Source of the DNA: Candidatus Zixiibacteriota bacterium
Lineage (GTDB): Bacteria > Zixibacteria > MSB-5A5 > GN15 > JAAZOE01
NCBI GenBank assembly: GCA_030668485.1
Contig: DAOUTW010000029.1
Span: 1-50,857, forward strand
Direction of reading: 5' to 3'
Length of the DNA: 50,857 nucleotides
Positions 29,965-40,008 of this stretch are shown here, in pieces. The stretch's first letter is position 1; the number at the start of each line of letters is the position of its first letter. The position numbers were made by a program, and so were the translations under genes. The notes below the pieces were generated by a model. It ran no database searches. It had not been told where the DNA came from and was given only the letters and a program-made list of their open reading frames with translations.

Positions 29965-32520
29965 TTATTTTATTATCACCAGTTTTCCGATCTGGTCGCC
30001 CATCTCCGAGCGGACATGCCAGATATATATCCCGGTCACAATCGCCTGGGTGTTGCGGCTGACCATATTCCACTCTTCATGCTGCGCATCGGGATCACCT
30101 TCGGGACAATAATGCTTGATCTCACGCACCAAATCACCGGCCACGGTGTAAATGCGGATCGTGCAGATTTTTGGCAGGTTGGCGAAATGGATACGACGCG
30201 ACCATGCCGCCGCTTTGGTCCGGTCGCGGTTTTCATAGCCGGCGCGAGCATAACGATCGGTGATGCGATACGGATTGGGGTAAACGGTTACCTCGAGACC
30301 ACGATGCTCCACCGTGTCGACCGCTGGCAGGGCGTAAGCCTTGACCATGTTGGTCAGTGGCGATGTCTCCAACTGGCCAATCCCATACTGAAACGATCCA
30401 TAGTCAAAGGCGGTCACCGCGAACCAGTACGGAATCGATGGCTCCAGATTGTCGATAATATATTCATACTCATAGCAACGACGCCATCCCTCCTCCGTGA
30501 TATCGGTTAAATCATCTGGCGAGGCGTTGGGATACACTTTGTGAATGCCGAGCTGGTTCGACAGATCCGATTGATTCCAGTCCTGCCGCGTAAAATAATA
30601 TATCTCGCCGGTTTTATAATCGTGGAAATAGTGAAATTGATCGTAGTACTCATCAGCATCGAAATCATTGCCATGAACCTGCTTCAAGCTGTCATGCCTG
30701 GCCGAATTTGAGATTTTTCGCCACAACCGCAGATCGGTGTCGAAATGATACACGATATAATCATCGATATCATACGAGGCGAGCAGGACAAAGTCGGACA
30801 GCCGATCACCCTGACCGTAGTAGACCCGGTAGCCCTCAAAATCGACCACCCCCGAAAAGAAATCGGGCGTGGTCTCCGATTCCTGACCGTTCCATCGTAG
30901 GGTGATTTTGCCATAATCGGGATAGACGCGAACTTCCGGCGGCGGTGGCGGCATCATTGCTTTGAAATCGGGAATACTGTCGCCGGTGTAGTACTGCCTG
31001 ATCGAATCGACGACAAAGCTGTCGGATGGATCGTAATCGGTAGTGTCTCGCCAGGTGTATATCCAGCAGAATTCGCCGCTGTAGCCATCGTCATCAGTGT
31101 CGATACCGGGGTTGTCGTAGACCGCGCGGGCCCATTGTGAATTCCTCGCCAGGTCGGAGAAATCGAGCTTGTCGTAATATAGCTGGGGATGATAGGGGTC
31201 AAAGTAGTTTCTATAATCCCAGGGATTGACATGGAAATTCTCGCCGGCAATAAAGGCGAAGGTGAAGGGAATACTGTCGCCGGGATCAAGCGAATAGGGG
31301 CCTATCGACAATAAATAGGTTGTATTGAATCCGCCAGCCAATTCGGCGGCAAATCGCGGTTCGGGGGGCGGCAGGAATCCCTCATCGGTGTGGCCGATAG
31401 CCGTGAACATCTGGTCGTAGTCGACTTCGGGATGCGACATCATATAATACATATCCTTATCGGTCAGCGGAGTTCCCATGTAGTGATATGCGAATTCACG
31501 GAAAGGGTCATCATCGGTTGGGGCTCGGCGGGGTCCCCAGTTATATTTCGGGTCAATCTGACCGGAAAACCAATTGAAATTACAGCGTTTTCCACGACCC
31601 AGGGGGGATAGAATCTGAACCGCTATTACTGACCGCGGGGAGGTATATTCCCACTCCTGATATATATTGGACTTGCCATCGTTATCGGCGAACCATGCCA
31701 TAATAACCGAATCCACCGGCTGGCAGGATCCGGGGGGCGATTCGAGGGTTGACAGAAAACCGGTATTAATTAATCCGGTCGGGACGGAAACTGAAGTATG
31801 ACGAGGAAGACCACCGACCCAGAGAGCGATGTACATATCTTTGATCGGCATCGAACCGATATTGCTAATTTGGCAGTCGACAATAATGAAATCCTCAGCA
31901 TAAGGGATGCCCCAGGCATAGCTATTCTGATGAACGCTCAGATGCAAGGGAATATGAGGCCTGTTTTCAAATTGATTCTCATGGATAATTGCCGCATCGG
32001 TTAAGGTGTCGGTAAAGGTGCATATAAAATCCTGTTCGGATATGGCATCTTTATGATAATCATCACTGTGCCGAAGTAACGATCGACGAATTATGGCCCC
32101 GGACTCACCTTGATCGGGAGAAAATTCAAGAACAGACGCGAACCCCCGAGCGGAAACAAGAGTATCCCGACCTCTTATACCCCCGATCCATAATTGGCAA
32201 CCGCTCAGGTATTGAAATTCCGAATTTCGAGGGAACTCGGCAGTGGTATACCTGCCGGAATTACTAACCTGCATTCCCAGGTTGTTTACATCGTGTAGCA
32301 TACTCTCAAAGTAAGGGAATCCATCGGCATTTTTTTCATTCCGTTCCGGATCAGATATACTGACCGAATCGAGTGGTTTCCCAAACCCCGGTTTTAATAA
32401 TTCTGCGATACAAATGCCATTGCTGGCGATTAGCATCAGAAAGACGACCAAAAAACAGATTCCTATACATGGAAATGTTTTCGAAAAAAGACCGGATGCC
32501 CGACGCCTGCCTGAAATCAT
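29965..32520 (-). CDS. Large secreted protein with a FlgD/T9SS-like C-terminal sorting domain
   Basis: The protein has 851 residues from ATG 32520; GGAGG lies 9 bases upstream, whereas the longer frame from 32562 has none. A hydrophobic signal segment lies near residues 14-38. The bulk is aromatic- and Asp-rich beta structure without a recognised catalytic site. A fibronectin-III-like part appears (PPPEVRVYPDYGKITLRWNG ... VDFEGYRVYYGQGD). The last ~110 residues start with VYPNPYRITDRYA and end TGIYIWHVRSEMGDQIGKLV, the hallmark of FlgD-Ig/T9SS type-A-like sorting domains of FCB bacteria. It is probably exported to the surface. A similar tail remnant lies about 150 bp upstream of its start. 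Confidence 0.88.
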   Translation of the reverse strand: MISGRRRASGLFSKTFPCIGICFLVVFLMLIASNGICIAELLKPGFGKPLDSVSISDPERNEKNADGFPYFESMLHDVNNLGMQVSNSGRYTTAEFPRNSEFQYLSGCQLWIGGIRGRDTLVSARGFASVLEFSPDQGESGAIIRRSLLRHSDDYHKDAISEQDFICTFTDTLTDAAIIHENQFENRPHIPLHLSVHQNSYAWGIPYAEDFIIVDCQISNIGSMPIKDMYIALWVGGLPRHTSVSVPTGLINTGFLSTLESPPGSCQPVDSVIMAWFADNDGKSNIYQEWEYTSPRSVIAVQILSPLGRGKRCNFNWFSGQIDPKYNWGPRRAPTDDDPFREFAYHYMGTPLTDKDMYYMMSHPEVDYDQMFTAIGHTDEGFLPPPEPRFAAELAGGFNTTYLLSIGPYSLDPGDSIPFTFAFIAGENFHVNPWDYRNYFDPYHPQLYYDKLDFSDLARNSQWARAVYDNPGIDTDDDGYSGEFCWIYTWRDTTDYDPSDSFVVDSIRQYYTGDSIPDFKAMMPPPPPEVRVYPDYGKITLRWNGQESETTPDFFSGVVDFEGYRVYYGQGDRLSDFVLLASYDIDDYIVYHFDTDLRLWRKISNSARHDSLKQVHGNDFDADEYYDQFHYFHDYKTGEIYYFTRQDWNQSDLSNQLGIHKVYPNASPDDLTDITEEGWRRCYEYEYIIDNLEPSIPYWFAVTAFDYGSFQYGIGQLETSPLTNMVKAYALPAVDTVEHRGLEVTVYPNPYRITDRYARAGYENRDRTKAAAWSRRIHFANLPKICTIRIYTVAGDLVREIKHYCPEGDPDAQHEEWNMVSRNTQAIVTGIYIWHVRSEMGDQIGKLVIIK

Positions 32521-32672
32521 CACGCTCAACCTCCATATACAATATAAAAGAAACCGTATCAAATGCGATAATAAATTAATTCTTCTGGCATAATTATCAT
32601 AAGCCGGTGCGCCACGGTTGAGTGTACATTCACAGGGATATTAATTCATGACATTGCTAGTTTGGTATACGC

Positions 32673-32800: not shown

Positions 32801-32918
32801 GCACTGGTTATGGTCATCCGCGCGACAGCCGAAAAGCGGCCCCGGCTAATCGGCTCGCTTGTCCAGACGATAATTCATGCAGTAGTTATGGTCATCCGCG
32901 CGACAGCCCAAAAGTGGC
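32801..32918. repeat. Two direct 40-bp repeats
   Basis: 32801-32840 and 32879-32918 share the core GTTATGGTCATCCGCGCGAC and its extension AGCC.AAAAG.GGC, with about four differences in 40 bases and a period of 78 bp. They lie in the gene-free stretch 32754-32930, next to the tail remnant. Confidence 0.65.
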
Positions 32919-32930
32919 TTCTGCCACCGG

Positions 32931-34547
32931 TTATATTTTTATGTAGGGGGTGGGATTGGTGATCAGCCCGGTAAGGGCCGAGGCTGCAGCAGTGGCGGGC
33001 GAAACCTGATACATCTCGCCGTTGCCGCTCTCGAAATTGGTATCGAAATGAGTTGTCAGCCCCTTCTCCTCCTGAGCCAGAAGTGGCATCCTGCCGCCTA
33101 ACAGAGGACTTCCAGGATTGACAATGATCGCTCCGGCCTCGATGAAAACGCGGATCAACCCTTTTTTAAGGGCCTCCAGGTAAACCGCTCGCGAGGCGGG
33201 CTGGAGAATAAACCGGACCTCGGGGTTGACTCGTTTGCCCTTGAGGATATCGGCGACGATTTTCAAATCGTCGAAGCGGCCGTTGGTGATGCCGCCGATA
33301 AATACCTGTCTTATTGGAAAACCGTCGATTTCCTCGATCGGCGTTACCGCCTCGATTTTCTCCGGTCCGGCCGCCACCGGCCTCATGGTGTTGATTTCAA
33401 ATGAAAACTCGGCGGCATAATCAGCGTTACGGTCGGCCATCACCGGTGTGAACGGCCGGCGCGCTCGCGGATTGACATATCGGCGGGTGGTCGCATCAAA
33501 GGGGCATACGGCTGCTTTGGCGCCGGTCGCCGAAGACATATTGCACAGCGTAATTCTTTCCGAGATCGACATCTGGTCAATCCCGGTACCGTAATATTCG
33601 ATCACTCTCCCGTCGGCTTCGGAATCGGTCAAATGGGCGATGATATAGTGAATAACATCGCGGGCGAAGACTCCTCGCGGCAGGCGTCCGGAAATATTGA
33701 CGCGGATAGCCTCGGGAACTTCGATTTCCGCCTTGGCGGTGGCCCAGATATTCGACATCTCTTCGGGATCGACATCGAGCGACAGCGCCCCCATGCATCC
33801 CAGGGTGGTCGATCCATTGATATTGCCGAGGCTGAGCTGTCCCGGAAGAAGGAGGCCTTTTTCGATAACTATTTGCTGAGGATTACCCTCGCCGATATCG
33901 AAGAAATTTTTAATTTGCTGCCGCCGGACGAAATCCCTGACCGATTTATGGACTTCGGCCAGATCGGGGCTGTCGGACGTAGAAACGTTGTCGAGGGGGA
34001 TGACAATACGGTTCGGATTGCGGACATAGGTCATGCCGGTTTCATTGAAAAGCTGCAACACCTTTCCGCTGCCGCCGGGGACCAGCATCATATCCGGCTC
34101 AACTTCGACCTTCTCCCCCGGCTCGTTGCCATCGACACCAGCTCTCTGGGCCAGAAGTTTCTGGGCGAAAGTCTGACGACCGGTACCGGATAAACGCTGG
34201 CGCTTCCTGTCGCGAGTATGCAGTTCGAGGCTGAGTTGCTCAAGCTTGAGGGCATCCGGTTTTTTGATGATTTTATAACGCCGCCGCCAATTATAGAAGG
34301 CGGCCTTGGAAATACCAAGTTCCATTCCGGCGTGGAAGTCGTCGCCGAACCGGTCCCAGACCTCGCGGATGTCATTTTCGGAAAACTTGGGGAATGAGTA
34401 TTTGGGTATCCCTTTTTTACGACGCCAGTAGGCGACCAGATGTTCGGTGACACCATTGCCGAGAACTTCCGCAATCCGTTTATCGGTGCGATACAGCTTC
34501 TGCAGGCGCAACAGGTCGCCTTTGGTCGGTATCCGGCGAAGACTCAT
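32931..34547 (-). CDS. HTH-aconitase (LeuC-like) fusion lacking Fe-S and catalytic residues
   Basis: The protein has 538 residues. Residues about 10-48 (DKRIAEVLGNGVTEHLVAYW) and 56-92 (DDFHAGMELGISKAAFYNWR) look like two helix-turn-helix units, followed by a basic linker (about 111-135). Residues about 150-536 follow the LeuC/aconitase large-subunit fold: PLDNVSTSD, IRVNISGRLPRGVFARDVIH, SERITLCNMSSATGAKA, FIGGITNGRFDDLKI and a VSPATAAASALTG end. LeuC's Fe-S cysteines are all gone: IGSCTNGR became IGGITNGR (Ile420), and GCSMC became GSPLL (Ser480, Leu483). The active-site histidines are also lost (DSHT became NINGS; GI.H became GNPQ; DH became DN). It is therefore probably a DNA-binding regulator built on a dead dehydratase. 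The ATG overlaps the HIT gene stop by 4 bp. Confidence 0.85.
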   Translation of the reverse strand: MSLRRIPTKGDLLRLQKLYRTDKRIAEVLGNGVTEHLVAYWRRKKGIPKYSFPKFSENDIREVWDRFGDDFHAGMELGISKAAFYNWRRRYKIIKKPDALKLEQLSLELHTRDRKRQRLSGTGRQTFAQKLLAQRAGVDGNEPGEKVEVEPDMMLVPGGSGKVLQLFNETGMTYVRNPNRIVIPLDNVSTSDSPDLAEVHKSVRDFVRRQQIKNFFDIGEGNPQQIVIEKGLLLPGQLSLGNINGSTTLGCMGALSLDVDPEEMSNIWATAKAEIEVPEAIRVNISGRLPRGVFARDVIHYIIAHLTDSEADGRVIEYYGTGIDQMSISERITLCNMSSATGAKAAVCPFDATTRRYVNPRARRPFTPVMADRNADYAAEFSFEINTMRPVAAGPEKIEAVTPIEEIDGFPIRQVFIGGITNGRFDDLKIVADILKGKRVNPEVRFILQPASRAVYLEALKKGLIRVFIEAGAIIVNPGSPLLGGRMPLLAQEEKGLTTHFDTNFESGNGEMYQVSPATAAASALTGLITNPTPYIKI

Positions 34548-35035
34548 ACTTTGGCAAATCCCTCGGCCAGGGTTTTATAGATCAGTTCCATCGGAATCGA
34601 ATGGACTCTGGTTTTGCCGACGATCGGCATAAAGTTGGAATCGCCGGTCCAGCGAGGCACAATATGCATGTGCAAATGGCGGGGGATTCCGGCTCCGGCC
34701 GGACGGCCGAGATTCATGCCGAGGTTAAAGGCATTCGGTCTCAGACAGGATTTCATAACTTTAACCGCCAATTGGGATAATTTGATCAACTCAATCGATT
34801 CCTGTTCGGTCAGACGTTCCAGCACCCCGATATGACGGTTGGGCACAATAAGCAGATGCCCTCCGTTGTAGGGGAATTTATTCAAGACAATATACGACTT
34901 CTCGGTGCGATACAGGATCAGATTTTTAAGGCTTTTTTTCTTCGCCTTAACCAGTTTGCAAAAGACGCACCCCTTCTCCTTTTTGCCCAGAATAAACTCG
35001 GAGCGCCAGGGCGCGCGAATATTTTGTTCAGCCAT
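34544..35035 (-). CDS. HIT-family protein, Ap4A phosphorylase-like
   Basis: The protein has 163 residues. The zinc-knuckle-like CVFCKLVK at the N-terminus, LNKFPYNGGHLLIVPNRHIG, FNLGMNLGRPAGAGIPRHLH and the histidine triad HLHMHIVPRW followed by GDSNFMPIVGKT closely follow the actinobacterial Ap4A phosphorylase/ATP adenylyltransferase group (Rv2613c-like). The expected reaction is phosphorolysis of diadenosine tetraphosphate. The position usually holding Gln in HLHQH is Met. It is translationally coupled to the HTH-aconitase gene. No clear Shine-Dalgarno was seen; an AT-rich TATATTATAAG lies close to the ATG. Confidence 0.9.
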   Translation of the reverse strand: MAEQNIRAPWRSEFILGKKEKGCVFCKLVKAKKKSLKNLILYRTEKSYIVLNKFPYNGGHLLIVPNRHIGVLERLTEQESIELIKLSQLAVKVMKSCLRPNAFNLGMNLGRPAGAGIPRHLHMHIVPRWTGDSNFMPIVGKTRVHSIPMELIYKTLAEGFAKV

Positions 35036-35079: not shown

Positions 35080-37200
35080 TTAGACTATGCCCGATGAGCT
35101 CGCAACCGCCTCGCTCTGTCCTAACTCAATCACACGGGAGTCGGCAACCAATTCTGCCTTCCTAACGCCGATAAAGATAATCTGGCGTTTCGCGACGATT
35201 TTTTGAAGCAGGTCGAAGAATCCTCTTTGCCGCTCCCGATCCATGCGGGTTTCGGCCTGATCGAGGATTATCGGCGGAGCGAATTCGGCCGATAGCAGCG
35301 CAACTCCGGCCATACGTAAAGCCAGATAAATACAATCGCGGGTCGATGATGAGAAAGTATCGGTAACTTCGAGCCATTGATCGGTGGAGGAAATTTTCAC
35401 CTCGAATCGATCCGGATCGCGGCGAAAGCGGAGCTGGTCGTACCGACCGTTCGTGAGGGAATCGAGAAATGCTGATGATGAGGCACTGAACGCTTCGAAG
35501 GTATCTTCGATCAACTGGTCGGCAGCACGATTGAGGGCCAGCCGGGTGATTCTCAGGACTTCCAGCCGTTCGGTGAGACCATTGTGTTTACTTTTCAGAA
35601 TATCAATCTGGCCTTCAACTTTGGACAGGCTTTCCTTCAGGGAGTCAAGAGCCGTACATCGTTCGGTGAGATGGGCCATGCGCTCACGGAGAGCGTTGGC
35701 GCGAACGCGCCGTGAAATCATTTCTTCTTTACAGTCGGGCAAATTAGCCGAAGAGGAAGCGAAAGCTGACAGGGGCGCCAGTTCCTCGTTGATTTGGGCT
35801 ACCTCGCCTTCGATTTGCTCTCTTATCCTGGTAAGATGATCCAGTCCTTTGTTTTCGGACAAGGCATCAATGGTATTTCGAAGATTTTCGGCGCTGATTT
35901 CCAACGCCTGCCTTCTCTGTACGATCTCTTGCAATGTCCTGATCGGATCGGCCGCCTGCTGACCATATTTCTGGTTGAGTTCGGCATAAAACTGATCCAT
36001 TTCGGTAACGCTGTCCCGGAATACTGCGGTTGCCTTTTTCTTGTTGAAATACTGAGACAGGTATACTCCCATCTGTGACAACCAGACAAGAGCCATGACC
36101 GGAATGGAATACGGGAAAATATCGGCCACCGGCCCAATCTGGATATATCCGTTTTGCTCGATAACATAAGTCAGGCAGAGAAGCACGAGCACCAGAGTGG
36201 CCGCTATGAATCCGCGATTGGCCTTCTTGCGTCGAGTAATCAGGTTATCCATCGCCTGTTTCGACTCATTCACCCGGTTGTTAAGTTCGTCGCTTTTATC
36301 GGAAATCCGGTCCATCTCCTCCGGATCGGGGGGGGCCAGACGATTCAATTCGGTTTCAACTCTGACCAGATCCTCAGCAACCTGAACGGCACGGGAATAA
36401 CTGCCAAGATGAACCTGCAGACGGTCTTCGAGATTAATCATCCTGCCATTGATTTCCTGATAAGCGACGGCTCCCTCGATTTCCTTTTCGAGATACTCTA
36501 TCCGCTGTTCATGTTCATCTACCTGGCCTCGGATTCCTTCAAGTTCCTGGCGATCTTTTTCGAGCGCCTCCCATCGCTTTTCAATATCCGACTTTTCCTG
36601 AAGACGGGCCGATATCTGATCGGCAACTTCGTCTAACTCGCGCTGACCATGAGCGCGGGGATTATCCAGCTTTTTTATTTCATCATCAAGGTAGCGGTCG
36701 GCCCGGCCTCGGTCAAATCCATAGAAAACCGGAATCTCTATCGCCGACTGCAATTTATTCCGGCTCAATTCCGGTGCGGCCGGATTATCAGATGAAAAAC
36801 AGAAAGTCGATTCAAAAAGGGTGCGATCGGCGACACCGAAATATTTTGAAAGTTTTTCTCCGATAACCTTGCCTTCGAAAATAATCCCATCGGAATCGGT
36901 CATAATATCCCGGTCGGCCTGATAATCCCTCAACAGGGTGAAAATCTTGTCACCGACTGAAAATTCCAGGGTCAGGCGAAAAGAACGATCTGAGGACCAG
37001 TTACTATTAGACGCGACTGCTTTTTTCTTGGTGGAACCATCTTCGAAAAGAATGGTGAACAAAGCTTTGATGATAGTCGATTTGCCGCTTTCATTTGGGC
37101 CGATAATCTGGTTGAATCCGGAGTCGAATTCAATTTTCCGGTCCCGGAAACACCCAAAGTTTTCGATGCGGAGGGACTTTATGATCGTTCTGCTATCCAT
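35080..37200 (-). CDS. YhaN/SbcC-like ATPase with membrane segments in the coiled coil
   Basis: The protein has 706 residues. Its N-terminal ABC-ATPase half has GPNESGKST (34-42). Long coiled coils (about 165-320 and 395-580) flank two hydrophobic membrane-spanning stretches near residues 330-385 (FIAATLVLVLLCLTYVI; YSIPVMALVWLSQMGVYL). The C-terminal half has the ABC signature region TFSSSTRDCIYLALRMAG, where the usual SSGT is SSST, and a Walker B region PPIILDQAETRMD, where the usual D-D/E pair is D-Q. B. subtilis YhaN has the same layout. It follows the SbcD/YhaO-type nuclease gene with no gap, so the two should form a Mre11-Rad50-like complex, here tethered to the membrane. Confidence 0.9.
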   Translation of the reverse strand: MDSRTIIKSLRIENFGCFRDRKIEFDSGFNQIIGPNESGKSTIIKALFTILFEDGSTKKKAVASNSNWSSDRSFRLTLEFSVGDKIFTLLRDYQADRDIMTDSDGIIFEGKVIGEKLSKYFGVADRTLFESTFCFSSDNPAAPELSRNKLQSAIEIPVFYGFDRGRADRYLDDEIKKLDNPRAHGQRELDEVADQISARLQEKSDIEKRWEALEKDRQELEGIRGQVDEHEQRIEYLEKEIEGAVAYQEINGRMINLEDRLQVHLGSYSRAVQVAEDLVRVETELNRLAPPDPEEMDRISDKSDELNNRVNESKQAMDNLITRRKKANRGFIAATLVLVLLCLTYVIEQNGYIQIGPVADIFPYSIPVMALVWLSQMGVYLSQYFNKKKATAVFRDSVTEMDQFYAELNQKYGQQAADPIRTLQEIVQRRQALEISAENLRNTIDALSENKGLDHLTRIREQIEGEVAQINEELAPLSAFASSSANLPDCKEEMISRRVRANALRERMAHLTERCTALDSLKESLSKVEGQIDILKSKHNGLTERLEVLRITRLALNRAADQLIEDTFEAFSASSSAFLDSLTNGRYDQLRFRRDPDRFEVKISSTDQWLEVTDTFSSSTRDCIYLALRMAGVALLSAEFAPPIILDQAETRMDRERQRGFFDLLQKIVAKRQIIFIGVRKAELVADSRVIELGQSEAVASSSGIV

Positions 37201-38313
37201 TTACTCCTCACCGGTAATAATTCGGGTTCCCAGGCTGGCGGCTTTTTCATACAATTCAGCATGTTCCGGGCTGTCAGCCTCTTTGAGATGATTCAATTCA
37301 GCTTTAAACGCCTTAATCAACAGCTCGTGGCCCTCTTCGGGAACACCTAACAAAGCCGGCTTTTCATCCGGTTTTTGATTATCGGATTGCATCAGTAAAA
37401 ACCTCGGTGACCACTTTTTTATAATTTTCTCGACTTCGAGCTTATCATTAAAATTATCGGAATATTGAAGCTTTAGCTTTACAATGGAGTTCGGATTGGC
37501 CGTTTTTTCCAGCAGTTGAGAAACCTCCAGAGGATGGTAAATAGTGGCTTCTATCTTCTTCAAAGTTATCCCCGAAGTGGTCACCGGGAGAGCTTCTACC
37601 GAACCACTATCTTCAAGTCTGACAACAAGTACCGATCCCGCCTCGGGGTCCGACCAGGAGATCGGTTGACTGGTGCCGGGGTAGGCGACGGTGGTCGGGC
37701 CATGCTTTTCTAATCGGCCATTGTGCCAGTGCCCCAGGGCAAGGTAGTCTAATCCGGTTTTCTTTATATCTTCTGGATAAATCGGGTAATCGTTTTTGAA
37801 GTCGAGCCCGCCGATTTGGAGGGATCCATGAGCTAATCCGATATGATATCCCGATTCGTTTTGCCGGATCATTCCGGTGATAGGCGAGGTTGACGAGCGA
37901 TTAGATTGATTGGGGCAAAAATAAAGATGGCAGTCGACGCCAGGGACCCGATGCGGCGAGGTTATGGTATTATCCAAAATGATGATATTATCACCGGTCC
38001 ATCTTTCCTTCCCCGGCCCGAATACTGAATTATCGCTCAAAAAGTCATGGGTGCCGGGAAGAATATAGACAGGCATATGGGAACAGGTTGAAAATATTTC
38101 AGATGTTCTCCGGACAATTCCAGGTGATGGGTTTCTCTGATCGAACAGATCGCCGCAAATTAGGACAAAGGCCGCCCGGTTATCGACGGCCTGCTGGAGC
38201 GTTATTTCAAGTGCCCGAAACTGTGCATCCTGCAGTCGCTCACGAGCAGTTCCGAAGCGATGCAGGTTGGCGCCAAGGTGAAAATCGGCGGCATGGATAA
38301 AAGTCAGAGGCAT
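37201..38313 (-). CDS. SbcD/YhaO-type DNA exonuclease (metallophosphoesterase)
   Basis: The protein has 370 residues. The metallophosphoesterase motifs in order are HAADFHLG (residues 5-12), CGDLFDQR, LPGTHD (GNHD-type with Thr for Asn), GLAHGS and LALGHWHNG. A C-terminal capping part follows (about 230-370). It is the Mre11-like partner of the YhaN-type ATPase encoded directly downstream. Together they are expected to process DNA ends or hairpins, probably at the membrane. Its ATG follows the DUF885 gene stop with no spacer (TAAATG). Confidence 0.92.
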   Translation of the reverse strand: MPLTFIHAADFHLGANLHRFGTARERLQDAQFRALEITLQQAVDNRAAFVLICGDLFDQRNPSPGIVRRTSEIFSTCSHMPVYILPGTHDFLSDNSVFGPGKERWTGDNIIILDNTITSPHRVPGVDCHLYFCPNQSNRSSTSPITGMIRQNESGYHIGLAHGSLQIGGLDFKNDYPIYPEDIKKTGLDYLALGHWHNGRLEKHGPTTVAYPGTSQPISWSDPEAGSVLVVRLEDSGSVEALPVTTSGITLKKIEATIYHPLEVSQLLEKTANPNSIVKLKLQYSDNFNDKLEVEKIIKKWSPRFLLMQSDNQKPDEKPALLGVPEEGHELLIKAFKAELNHLKEADSPEHAELYEKAASLGTRIITGEE

Positions 38314-40008
38314 TTATCTAAGCATCTTTTCCCGGATCAAAGATACCGGAATGGAGCCCTCGGCCAGCAGCCGGTCATGGAACGATTTTAGACTGAAGTT
38401 CTCTCCCTCACGGGCTTTAATGATTTCGCGCAATTCCATAATCGCCCGTTTACCCATCAGATAACTCATCGGCTGTCCCGGATCGACGGTATATCTCAAA
38501 ACTTCCCGCTTGATCCAACTGGTATCGGCATCCAGAGTCTCACTCATCCAGGTTACAGCCTGATCGTAGTCGAATTGTCCCGTTTGCAGTTTGACATCGA
38601 CCACAATCCTCGCCGCCCGGAACCGGACGCCTCCGAGGACTCGTCGATAAAAAGTCGGATTATCTTCATAAAGACCGGCCTCATAGATCATCTCTTCGCA
38701 ATAAAGAGCCCAACCCTCGATCAGGGCGTTGTTCATCTGCCATTTCCGGACATCGGAACCACCCCGCCCGGCCAGTTGCAACTGAAGATGATGACCGGGG
38801 TATGCCTCATGAGCCACCGAACCCCGGAAGCTGCGATTGTGCATCTTCAGATAATATTCTTTTTTCTGCTCGTCAGTCAGGTTTTCCGGAACCGGTCGGA
38901 CATAAAAATAGCCGGTTTGGGCCGAATCAAACGGCCCCGGCGGCTCATAGGCAATGCTTCCGATAACGCCACGGAGGAAGATCGGTGTCTCAACCGCTAC
39001 GCAGTTGCCGACATCCTCGGGAACGGTCAGCAGATCGCGGTCGATAATAAATTCCTTTACCGCGTTTATTTCCCAGTTGTAATAATCGAGAACATCCTGC
39101 CTGGTAATCGAGGCAGGAATGAAAATCGGAGCATCATCTCGACGGCCCTCTTCATTCATCTTCTCGACGTATTCATCATATGCTTTTTGTGATTCGGCCA
39201 GTAATTTTTCACCGATCTTCAGAAGCGAGTCGGCATCAAAATCAAAGAAATACTGATGCCTGAGCATGTAATCGAAATATTCTTTCCCGATGGCGAAAGA
39301 ACCGGGGTCACCCGGCGTCAGTCCGGCAAGGAACTGCTTGAAATGATTCAAGGCCGCAATCGCCTTCTTCGATGCCTCCTCCAGTTCGGCGGATCGATCG
39401 GGAAATTGGCTCGTCAACTGAGTGGTCACCGTATTATAGAATTCGATAACGTTATTGATGTTTTCACCGGCGTACTCAAGCCAGATCGGTGGCGGGGCGT
39501 TCAGATTTCTCTCTCCCCGTTGCAAAAATTGAGGCAAGGCATGCATACGCGCGATGATGTTATCGAGCCGATCCCTGAGCGGAATATAATCGCTGATCAG
39601 GATATAATAGATTCCATCGGCAGCATCGCCGATATAAAGGTTGGGATTTTTATTGTGATAACCAACCTCTATCAGACGAAGGTTGGCGATTTCACAATTG
39701 CCTCGCAGCAACCGGCGGTCGATATCCATATCATGTGGCAAGCGCACCGATTTGTATTTATAGAGTCGGGCCAGGAATTTCCGCAACTCTTTCCGTTTAT
39801 TCTCGACATTGCGCGGTGAGTAGTCGGCAAAGTGGTTATCATAGTCATGAATCCCCATCATGGTAGCCCGAACAGGCCAGAATTCCTGGAGATTCTGCAT
39901 AATTTCCGCCGATAGTTTCGCGAAATTTTTCTCAGCCTTGCTTTCGGCCGACAGGGGAGCGGCTGCAAGTACCAAGATTATCAACCCCCAGGCGAAATAC
40001 GCCCGCAT
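38314..40008 (-). CDS. Secreted DUF885 peptidase-like protein
   Basis: The protein has 564 residues, with AAGGAGGAG upstream. Residues 1-21 are a signal peptide (LAAAPLSA). It is an all-helical DUF885 protein with the zinc-binding HEAYPGHHLQ motif and a downstream EGWALYCEEM supplying the third ligand, as in gluzincin-type metallopeptidases of this family. It is therefore probably an envelope metallopeptidase. It is odd that a secreted peptidase gene is fused end to start with the nuclease/ATPase pair, since the genes have no known shared role. Confidence 0.92.
   Translation of the reverse strand: MRAYFAWGLIILVLAAAPLSAESKAEKNFAKLSAEIMQNLQEFWPVRATMMGIHDYDNHFADYSPRNVENKRKELRKFLARLYKYKSVRLPHDMDIDRRLLRGNCEIANLRLIEVGYHNKNPNLYIGDAADGIYYILISDYIPLRDRLDNIIARMHALPQFLQRGERNLNAPPPIWLEYAGENINNVIEFYNTVTTQLTSQFPDRSAELEEASKKAIAALNHFKQFLAGLTPGDPGSFAIGKEYFDYMLRHQYFFDFDADSLLKIGEKLLAESQKAYDEYVEKMNEEGRRDDAPIFIPASITRQDVLDYYNWEINAVKEFIIDRDLLTVPEDVGNCVAVETPIFLRGVIGSIAYEPPGPFDSAQTGYFYVRPVPENLTDEQKKEYYLKMHNRSFRGSVAHEAYPGHHLQLQLAGRGGSDVRKWQMNNALIEGWALYCEEMIYEAGLYEDNPTFYRRVLGGVRFRAARIVVDVKLQTGQFDYDQAVTWMSETLDADTSWIKREVLRYTVDPGQPMSYLMGKRAIMELREIIKAREGENFSLKSFHDRLLAEGSIPVSLIREKMLR

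Follow-up and report, generated by a model that had tools for sequence, protein, structure and literature searches.

The gene analysed here lies on the minus strand at positions 32931..34547 of a 50,857-nucleotide stretch of contig DAOUTW010000029.1 from a Candidatus Zixiibacteriota bacterium, the whole of which is referred to as the window. It encodes a 538-AA product in which a helix-turn-helix (HTH) head precedes a domain of the aconitase/LeuC fold, and is called HTH-LeuC below. An earlier note on this DNA had described the product as such a fusion. The fusion proved to be a real minus-strand open reading frame of 538 codons, and a chance origin of the architecture can be ruled out because the same architecture is present in 120 genomes, orthologues being found in 120 of the 132 genomes of the phylum. 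The ATG start codon overlaps, as ATGA, the stop codon of the upstream gene (34544..35035, minus strand), whose product is a HIT-domain nucleotide hydrolase/transferase, Ap4A phosphorylase-like, with an intact HxHxH motif (PF01230, 4e-17). Further upstream, on the same strand, are genes for a Rad50/SbcC-like ATPase (35080..37200) and a Mre11/SbcD-like nuclease (37201..38313). A 564-AA open reading frame at 38314-40008 has no NCBIfam match. On the other side, between the HTH-LeuC stop codon and the next gene, we noted an imperfect 29-base direct repeat (32812-32840 and 32890-32918), GGTCATCCGCGCGACAGCC(G/C)AAAAG(C/T)GGC, with 0 expected in shuffles. An 865-AA open reading frame (29965-32562) has no Pfam or NCBIfam match; its C-terminus resembles, by eye, a secretion-sorting domain.

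AlphaFold2 modelling, with 29 sequences as input for the HTH head and 58 for the whole protein, bears out the suggestion that two HTH-like units precede the LeuC domain. Residues 1-105 are predicted to form two tandem, complete tri-helical HTH units with a pLDDT of about 90 or more. Unit 1 (residues 8-45; 34413..34526, minus strand) has predicted helices at residues 9-19, 22-29, and 35-44, the last of which, HLVAYWRRKK, is the putative recognition helix and includes the invariant Y40, W41, and K44. For unit 2 (residues 57-91; 34275..34379, minus strand), helices were predicted at 57-67, 70-77, and 81-90, with KAAFYNWRRR (residues 81-90) as the putative recognition helix. Compared by hhalign, unit 1 and unit 2 proved homologous (probability 95%, E=5e-8). 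Their third helices both end in a conserved W-R/K pattern (YWRRKK and NWRRRY), the W-R-R/K residues being invariant in each. The predicted structure and the conservation pattern together describe a complete tri-helical HTH with a conserved basic recognition helix. The units are followed by a conserved helix, KPxxLKLEQL (from residue 98), and a flexible linker (residues 102-121, pLDDT < 50), encoded at 34176..34256 on the minus strand.

No curated HTH family in Pfam was matched above its cut-off. A weak match to HTH_23, which in the window protein covers unit 2, was obtained for all 15 members scanned, with 16-21 bits (16 bits for the window protein) vs. the cut-off of 24.6 bits. Foldseek placed the isolated HTH pair nearest, though weakly (E > 0.1), to mariner Mos1 and SETMAR, in both cases to a bipartite DNA-binding domain; HTH domains are also found in transposases and other non-regulators. 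A sequence search of the PDB matched only adenosine deaminase, and these matches were rejected as spurious.

Profile, PDB, and Foldseek matches place residues 125-533 (32949..34175, minus strand) in the LeuC/HacA branch of the aconitase superfamily. The aconitase/LeuC fold proposed earlier was recovered in the profile search (PF00330, E=2.4e-57, 195 bits vs. a 28.7-bit cut-off), and the scores against two more specific models lie below their curated cut-offs: NF001614 (5e-102) at 341.6 bits vs. 385, and TIGR02086 (4e-98) at 328.7 bits vs. 410.15. The Methanocaldococcus jannaschii isopropylmalate (IPM) isomerase large subunit, LeuC (4nqy), was matched at 1.5e-65, and the predicted fold matched M. 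jannaschii LeuC 4kp1 with E=6e-48 and TMt 0.91 in Foldseek. The structural matches to the M. jannaschii LeuC/HacA large subunits show 33-34% identity over residues 125-533.

Mapping onto the M. jannaschii structure showed that the residues listed in the earlier note as evidence for loss of all Fe-S cysteines and active-site histidines had been read correctly. None of the three [4Fe-4S]-ligating cysteines is present (I420, S480, L482). In the alignment to MJ0499, Ile420 (33288..33290, minus strand) occupies the position of the first, in GSCTNGR, and Ser480 to Leu482 (33102..33110, minus strand) cover those of the second and third, in PxCxxC, the third corresponding to Leu482 or Leu483 depending on a one-residue alignment gap. 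The catalytic motif DSHT is replaced by Ile243-Asn244-Gly245-Ser246 (33810..33821, minus strand), the His of FDH by Asn187, and the His of GVCH by Gln224, which leaves the protein without the catalytic His/Asp/Ser set (N187, Q224, I243, N244, G245); both substrate arginines of NRNFxGR are absent as well. Asp186, Asn422, Arg424, and Ser452 are retained.

The fold superfamily matched in Foldseek is also that of IRP1 and IRP2 (2b3x, 3snp, 6vcd), and bacterial aconitases that bind RNA exist. An IRP1-like, post-transcriptional RNA-binding regulator in which the cluster is permanently absent would fit these likenesses, but we consider it unlikely. In IRP1 the RNA sits between domains 3 and 4. The window protein is a LeuC-type large subunit without the swivel domain of a four-domain aconitase, the domain model ending at residue 533 of 538, and the counterpart of domain 4 (LeuD) is apparently missing in the window's genome apart from two full-length aconitases. 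Moreover, the strongly conserved part of the protein is the HTH, a DNA-binding fold, and no conserved RNA element was found within the window with Rfam.

A role in leucine biosynthesis in the window's genome is ruled out by the absence of LeuA from this 99.95% complete genome together with the lost catalytic residues. The genome encodes two separate aconitases of ~650 AA, and its two matches to the LeuD model (best 1.2e-27) are presumably parts of these; neither a LeuD partner nor a leucine pathway was found in it. Compared with LeuC/HacA (M. jannaschii MJ0499 and MJ1003; TIGR02086, NF001614), the fold is shared, and intact sister proteins keep the catalytic residues and a LeuD neighbour, whereas the window protein carries an N-terminal double HTH and is without cluster cysteines, catalytic histidines, substrate arginines, and a LeuD neighbour. 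It is a member of the aconitase superfamily, but its function is not that of a LeuC: the cluster cysteines, the catalytic and substrate residues, the LeuD partner with its leucine pathway, and a score above the family cut-off, four features that define LeuC, are all missing.

Of the 132 genomes of the phylum, 120 have a match to the HTH profile, once per genome, as do 76 of the 78 of good quality. Among the 386 genomes searched, the fusion was not found in the 254 that lie outside the phylum, nor was it found in the plasmids or viral contigs searched; a single-sequence scan of genome contigs gave one relative, an 'FCB group bacterium' MAG. The fusion is thus apparently specific to the phylum, the cross-phylum absence having been measured on 254 genomes. 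The fusion proteins are monophyletic (support 0.94), and their neighbours in the tree are LeuC copies from this phylum that stand alone; all 25 of the latter that were sampled keep the three cluster cysteines.

The cysteine loss holds for the window's whole family, f1, in which the cluster and catalytic residues are gone, the loss being common to all six members sampled. It does not hold for the fusion family as a whole. Nine members, from families f6, f12, f13, and f14, have all cluster cysteines and catalytic residues, and LeuD is encoded directly downstream in each. Members of f3 keep the three cysteines with a broken DSHT motif, those of f15 and f16 keep some cysteines with broken histidines, and f4 shows mixed remains of the active site; almost nothing of it is left in f5, f9, f10, and f17-f19. 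In f2 (L046, L047, L048) the eroded LeuC domain carries a low-complexity Ser/Gln/Asn-rich insertion after the window-equivalent residue 390. The presence of intact members together with every intermediate state therefore points to a repeated conversion of enzyme to pseudoenzyme. On the HTH+HIT tree, loss of the cysteine triad required 13 events if only losses are allowed, or 7 changes under Fitch parsimony; with midpoint rooting and long branches in the tree, these figures are rough. The active-site residues would on this count have been lost in mosaic, repeatedly and independently, at least some 7-13 times.

The LeuD small subunit appears to co-decay beside most of the eroded members. Near eroded HTH-LeuC genes, its active-site loop GSSREQA was lost in 9/10 loci, the exception being L088, and the LeuD-like reading frames without this loop are still open (L105, L110, L113, L117, L123, L124, L127, L128, L142). 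In f12-f14, families that hold intact HTH-LeuC, LeuA-like matches were absent at E<=1e-40; stand-alone LeuC/LeuD copies are present there, one beside an isocitrate-dehydrogenase-like gene (identified by eye).

In the eroded members, constraint has shifted from the enzyme half to the HTH half. The enzyme domain is the better conserved part of the intact members (mean identity HTH/enzyme 0.70/0.76), while the corresponding values are 0.85/0.54 in f3, 0.88/0.47 in f4, and 0.82/0.47 in the window's family. Pairwise dN/dS values, which are simple NG86 estimates with some near saturation, ranged from 0.009-0.084 for the HTH and from 0.066-0.168 for the enzyme domain in the eroded pairs, the HTH having the lower value in 7/7 that were scorable; the order was reversed in both intact pairs that could be scored (HTH/enzyme 0.076/0.048 and 0.105/0.056). 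As every dN/dS is far below 1, both halves are maintained.

Homologues that keep the cysteines had been named in advance as a finding that would mark this copy as a decaying gene. Such homologues do exist, but the decay does not follow, the frame and both domains being under purifying selection. A decaying LeuC gene or pseudogene would account for the loss of active-site residues and for the in-frame stop of one relative (a TAA within the HTH-LeuC gene at G038:C69:2930-4537, which may be a true break or a sequencing error). Against this, the frame is open in nearly all genomes, dN/dS is far below 1 in both domains, the gene is retained in single copy in nearly all good-quality genomes, and the loss is shared by the six sampled f1 members. 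This explanation is extremely unlikely, and we regard it as refuted by the dN/dS values, the open frames, and the distribution.

Purifying selection on the enzyme domain (dN/dS 0.07-0.17), together with the retained Asp186, Asn422, Arg424, and Ser452, could also be expected of a protein that remains catalytic through some new chemistry without a cluster. We find this very unlikely, since the pattern in which cluster ligands, catalytic His/Asp/Ser, and substrate Arg were lost differs from lineage to lineage with no replacement motif, and since the most degenerate lineages have kept nothing of the site. A conserved change of residue that separates the eroded from the intact group is seen at only five positions (280, 348, 425, 466, and 523). 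The eroded domain retains its glycines, prolines, and packing residues, and the small number of new conserved motifs in the emptied domain argues for a scaffold or docking role over a new catalytic site.

The neighbourhood is conserved, as the search for homologues revealed: the HIT gene lies directly upstream of HTH-LeuC, on the same strand, in 60/60 loci, mostly overlapping it or a few bases apart. The HxHxH motif is kept in 61/61 HIT sequences, and the window protein is closest to the ATP adenylyltransferase (Ap4A phosphorylase) model, at 3.5e-41 but below the model cut-off. The gene arrangement indicates that the HIT protein is a translationally coupled partner of HTH-LeuC. The Mre11-SbcC-like genes immediately upstream of HIT, found in the window and in L005, with an SbcC-like homologue from the same cluster in 13/60 loci, raise the question of a chromosome-maintenance or DNA-repair accessory protein acting with these neighbours. 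Such a role seems quite unlikely, as the SbcC link is not universal, unlike that of HIT with its 60/60 loci, and in the intact members the linked gene is LeuD.

The search for an operator or regulon of HTH-LeuC yielded none. A single conserved element was found upstream of HIT; it resembles a core promoter, with TTTG..TATATT and an AAACC extension. An EM motif search in family f3 gave GAAACCRWTTG-N15-20-TATATT at a fixed place upstream of HIT (L123, L124, L125, L126, L132, L142). Genome-wide, the element also precedes gmd (five genomes), a phosphomannomutase-like gene, and tRNA-Leu (non-HIT loci L165, L176, L177, L187, L193, L168, L192), and it has the TTTG/TAnnTTTG look of FCB-group promoters. 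It was rejected as an operator of HTH-LeuC because it is promoter-like and precedes other genes too; from its sequence, it is probably an FCB-type core promoter class.

We think it likely that the window protein regulates transcription by binding DNA and that it evolved from the large subunit of a hydro-lyase of the isopropylmalate-isomerase/aconitase type. The ancestor would have been a bipartite HTH head fused to a working LeuC, encoded after the HIT hydrolase and before its own LeuD; such a protein, with catalysis and DNA binding on one chain, would be of the trigger-enzyme type. In most lineages, including that of the window, catalysis would then have been given up, with repeated loss of the cluster cysteines, catalytic histidines, and substrate arginines, and LeuD would have been lost or deprived of its own active site. 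The LeuC fold may have been kept as a scaffold, for dimerisation or for docking of an effector or a protein, that positions or switches the HTH head, and the HTH pair would bind DNA. The DNA binding, the regulatory role, and any ligand or partner of HTH-LeuC are our inference. The metabolite sensing suggested in the earlier note would have to work without the canonical substrate arginines and catalytic residues. A bolder version, in which the family is a phylum-wide and phylum-unique master regulator, a pseudoenzyme formed many times in parallel that would now respond to a novel signal, taken up by its emptied pocket or by the invariant HIT partner (e.g., a dinucleoside polyphosphate such as Ap4A), is speculative and unlikely.

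In line with the earlier note, which knew of no described family with this combination, we found no paper in the open-access literature that describes a fusion of an HTH with LeuC/aconitase. Several known systems resemble parts of it. With IRP1/cytosolic aconitase and the RNA-binding bacterial aconitases it shares the apparent use of an aconitase-superfamily protein as a regulator and the association of cluster loss with such a role. It differs from IRP1 in its dedicated HTH head, the permanent genetic loss of the cluster ligands, the single LeuC-type large subunit, and the presumed DNA target. Trigger enzymes with a DNA-binding domain, such as PutA, BirA, and NadR, are metabolic enzymes to which an HTH or RHH is fused, and to our knowledge none of these three belongs to the aconitase family. 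Intact HTH-LeuC, whose catalytic competence is read from its residues, would be of the same kind, whereas most HTH-LeuC members are pseudoenzymes. HTH repressors that descend from enzymes and whose catalytic domain is dead or repurposed include ROK (NagC/Mlc), MocR/GabR, and RpiR. The likeness to these lies in the joining of an HTH to what was once an enzyme and would now read an effector. HTH-LeuC is built on a different enzyme fold from theirs, and a single phylum contains both intact and eroded versions of it as orthologues.

Transcription factors that arose from enzymes are known, yet as a rule only the two end points of such a conversion can be seen. Here one phylum holds working-looking, partly eroded, and fully dead orthologues together, and the transfer of constraint between the two halves can be measured. 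If our reading is true, the aconitase fold would serve gene regulation here in a new way, one that parallels IRP1 but presumably acts on DNA, and an uncultured phylum would have a conserved, single-copy, and apparently phylum-specific candidate regulator.
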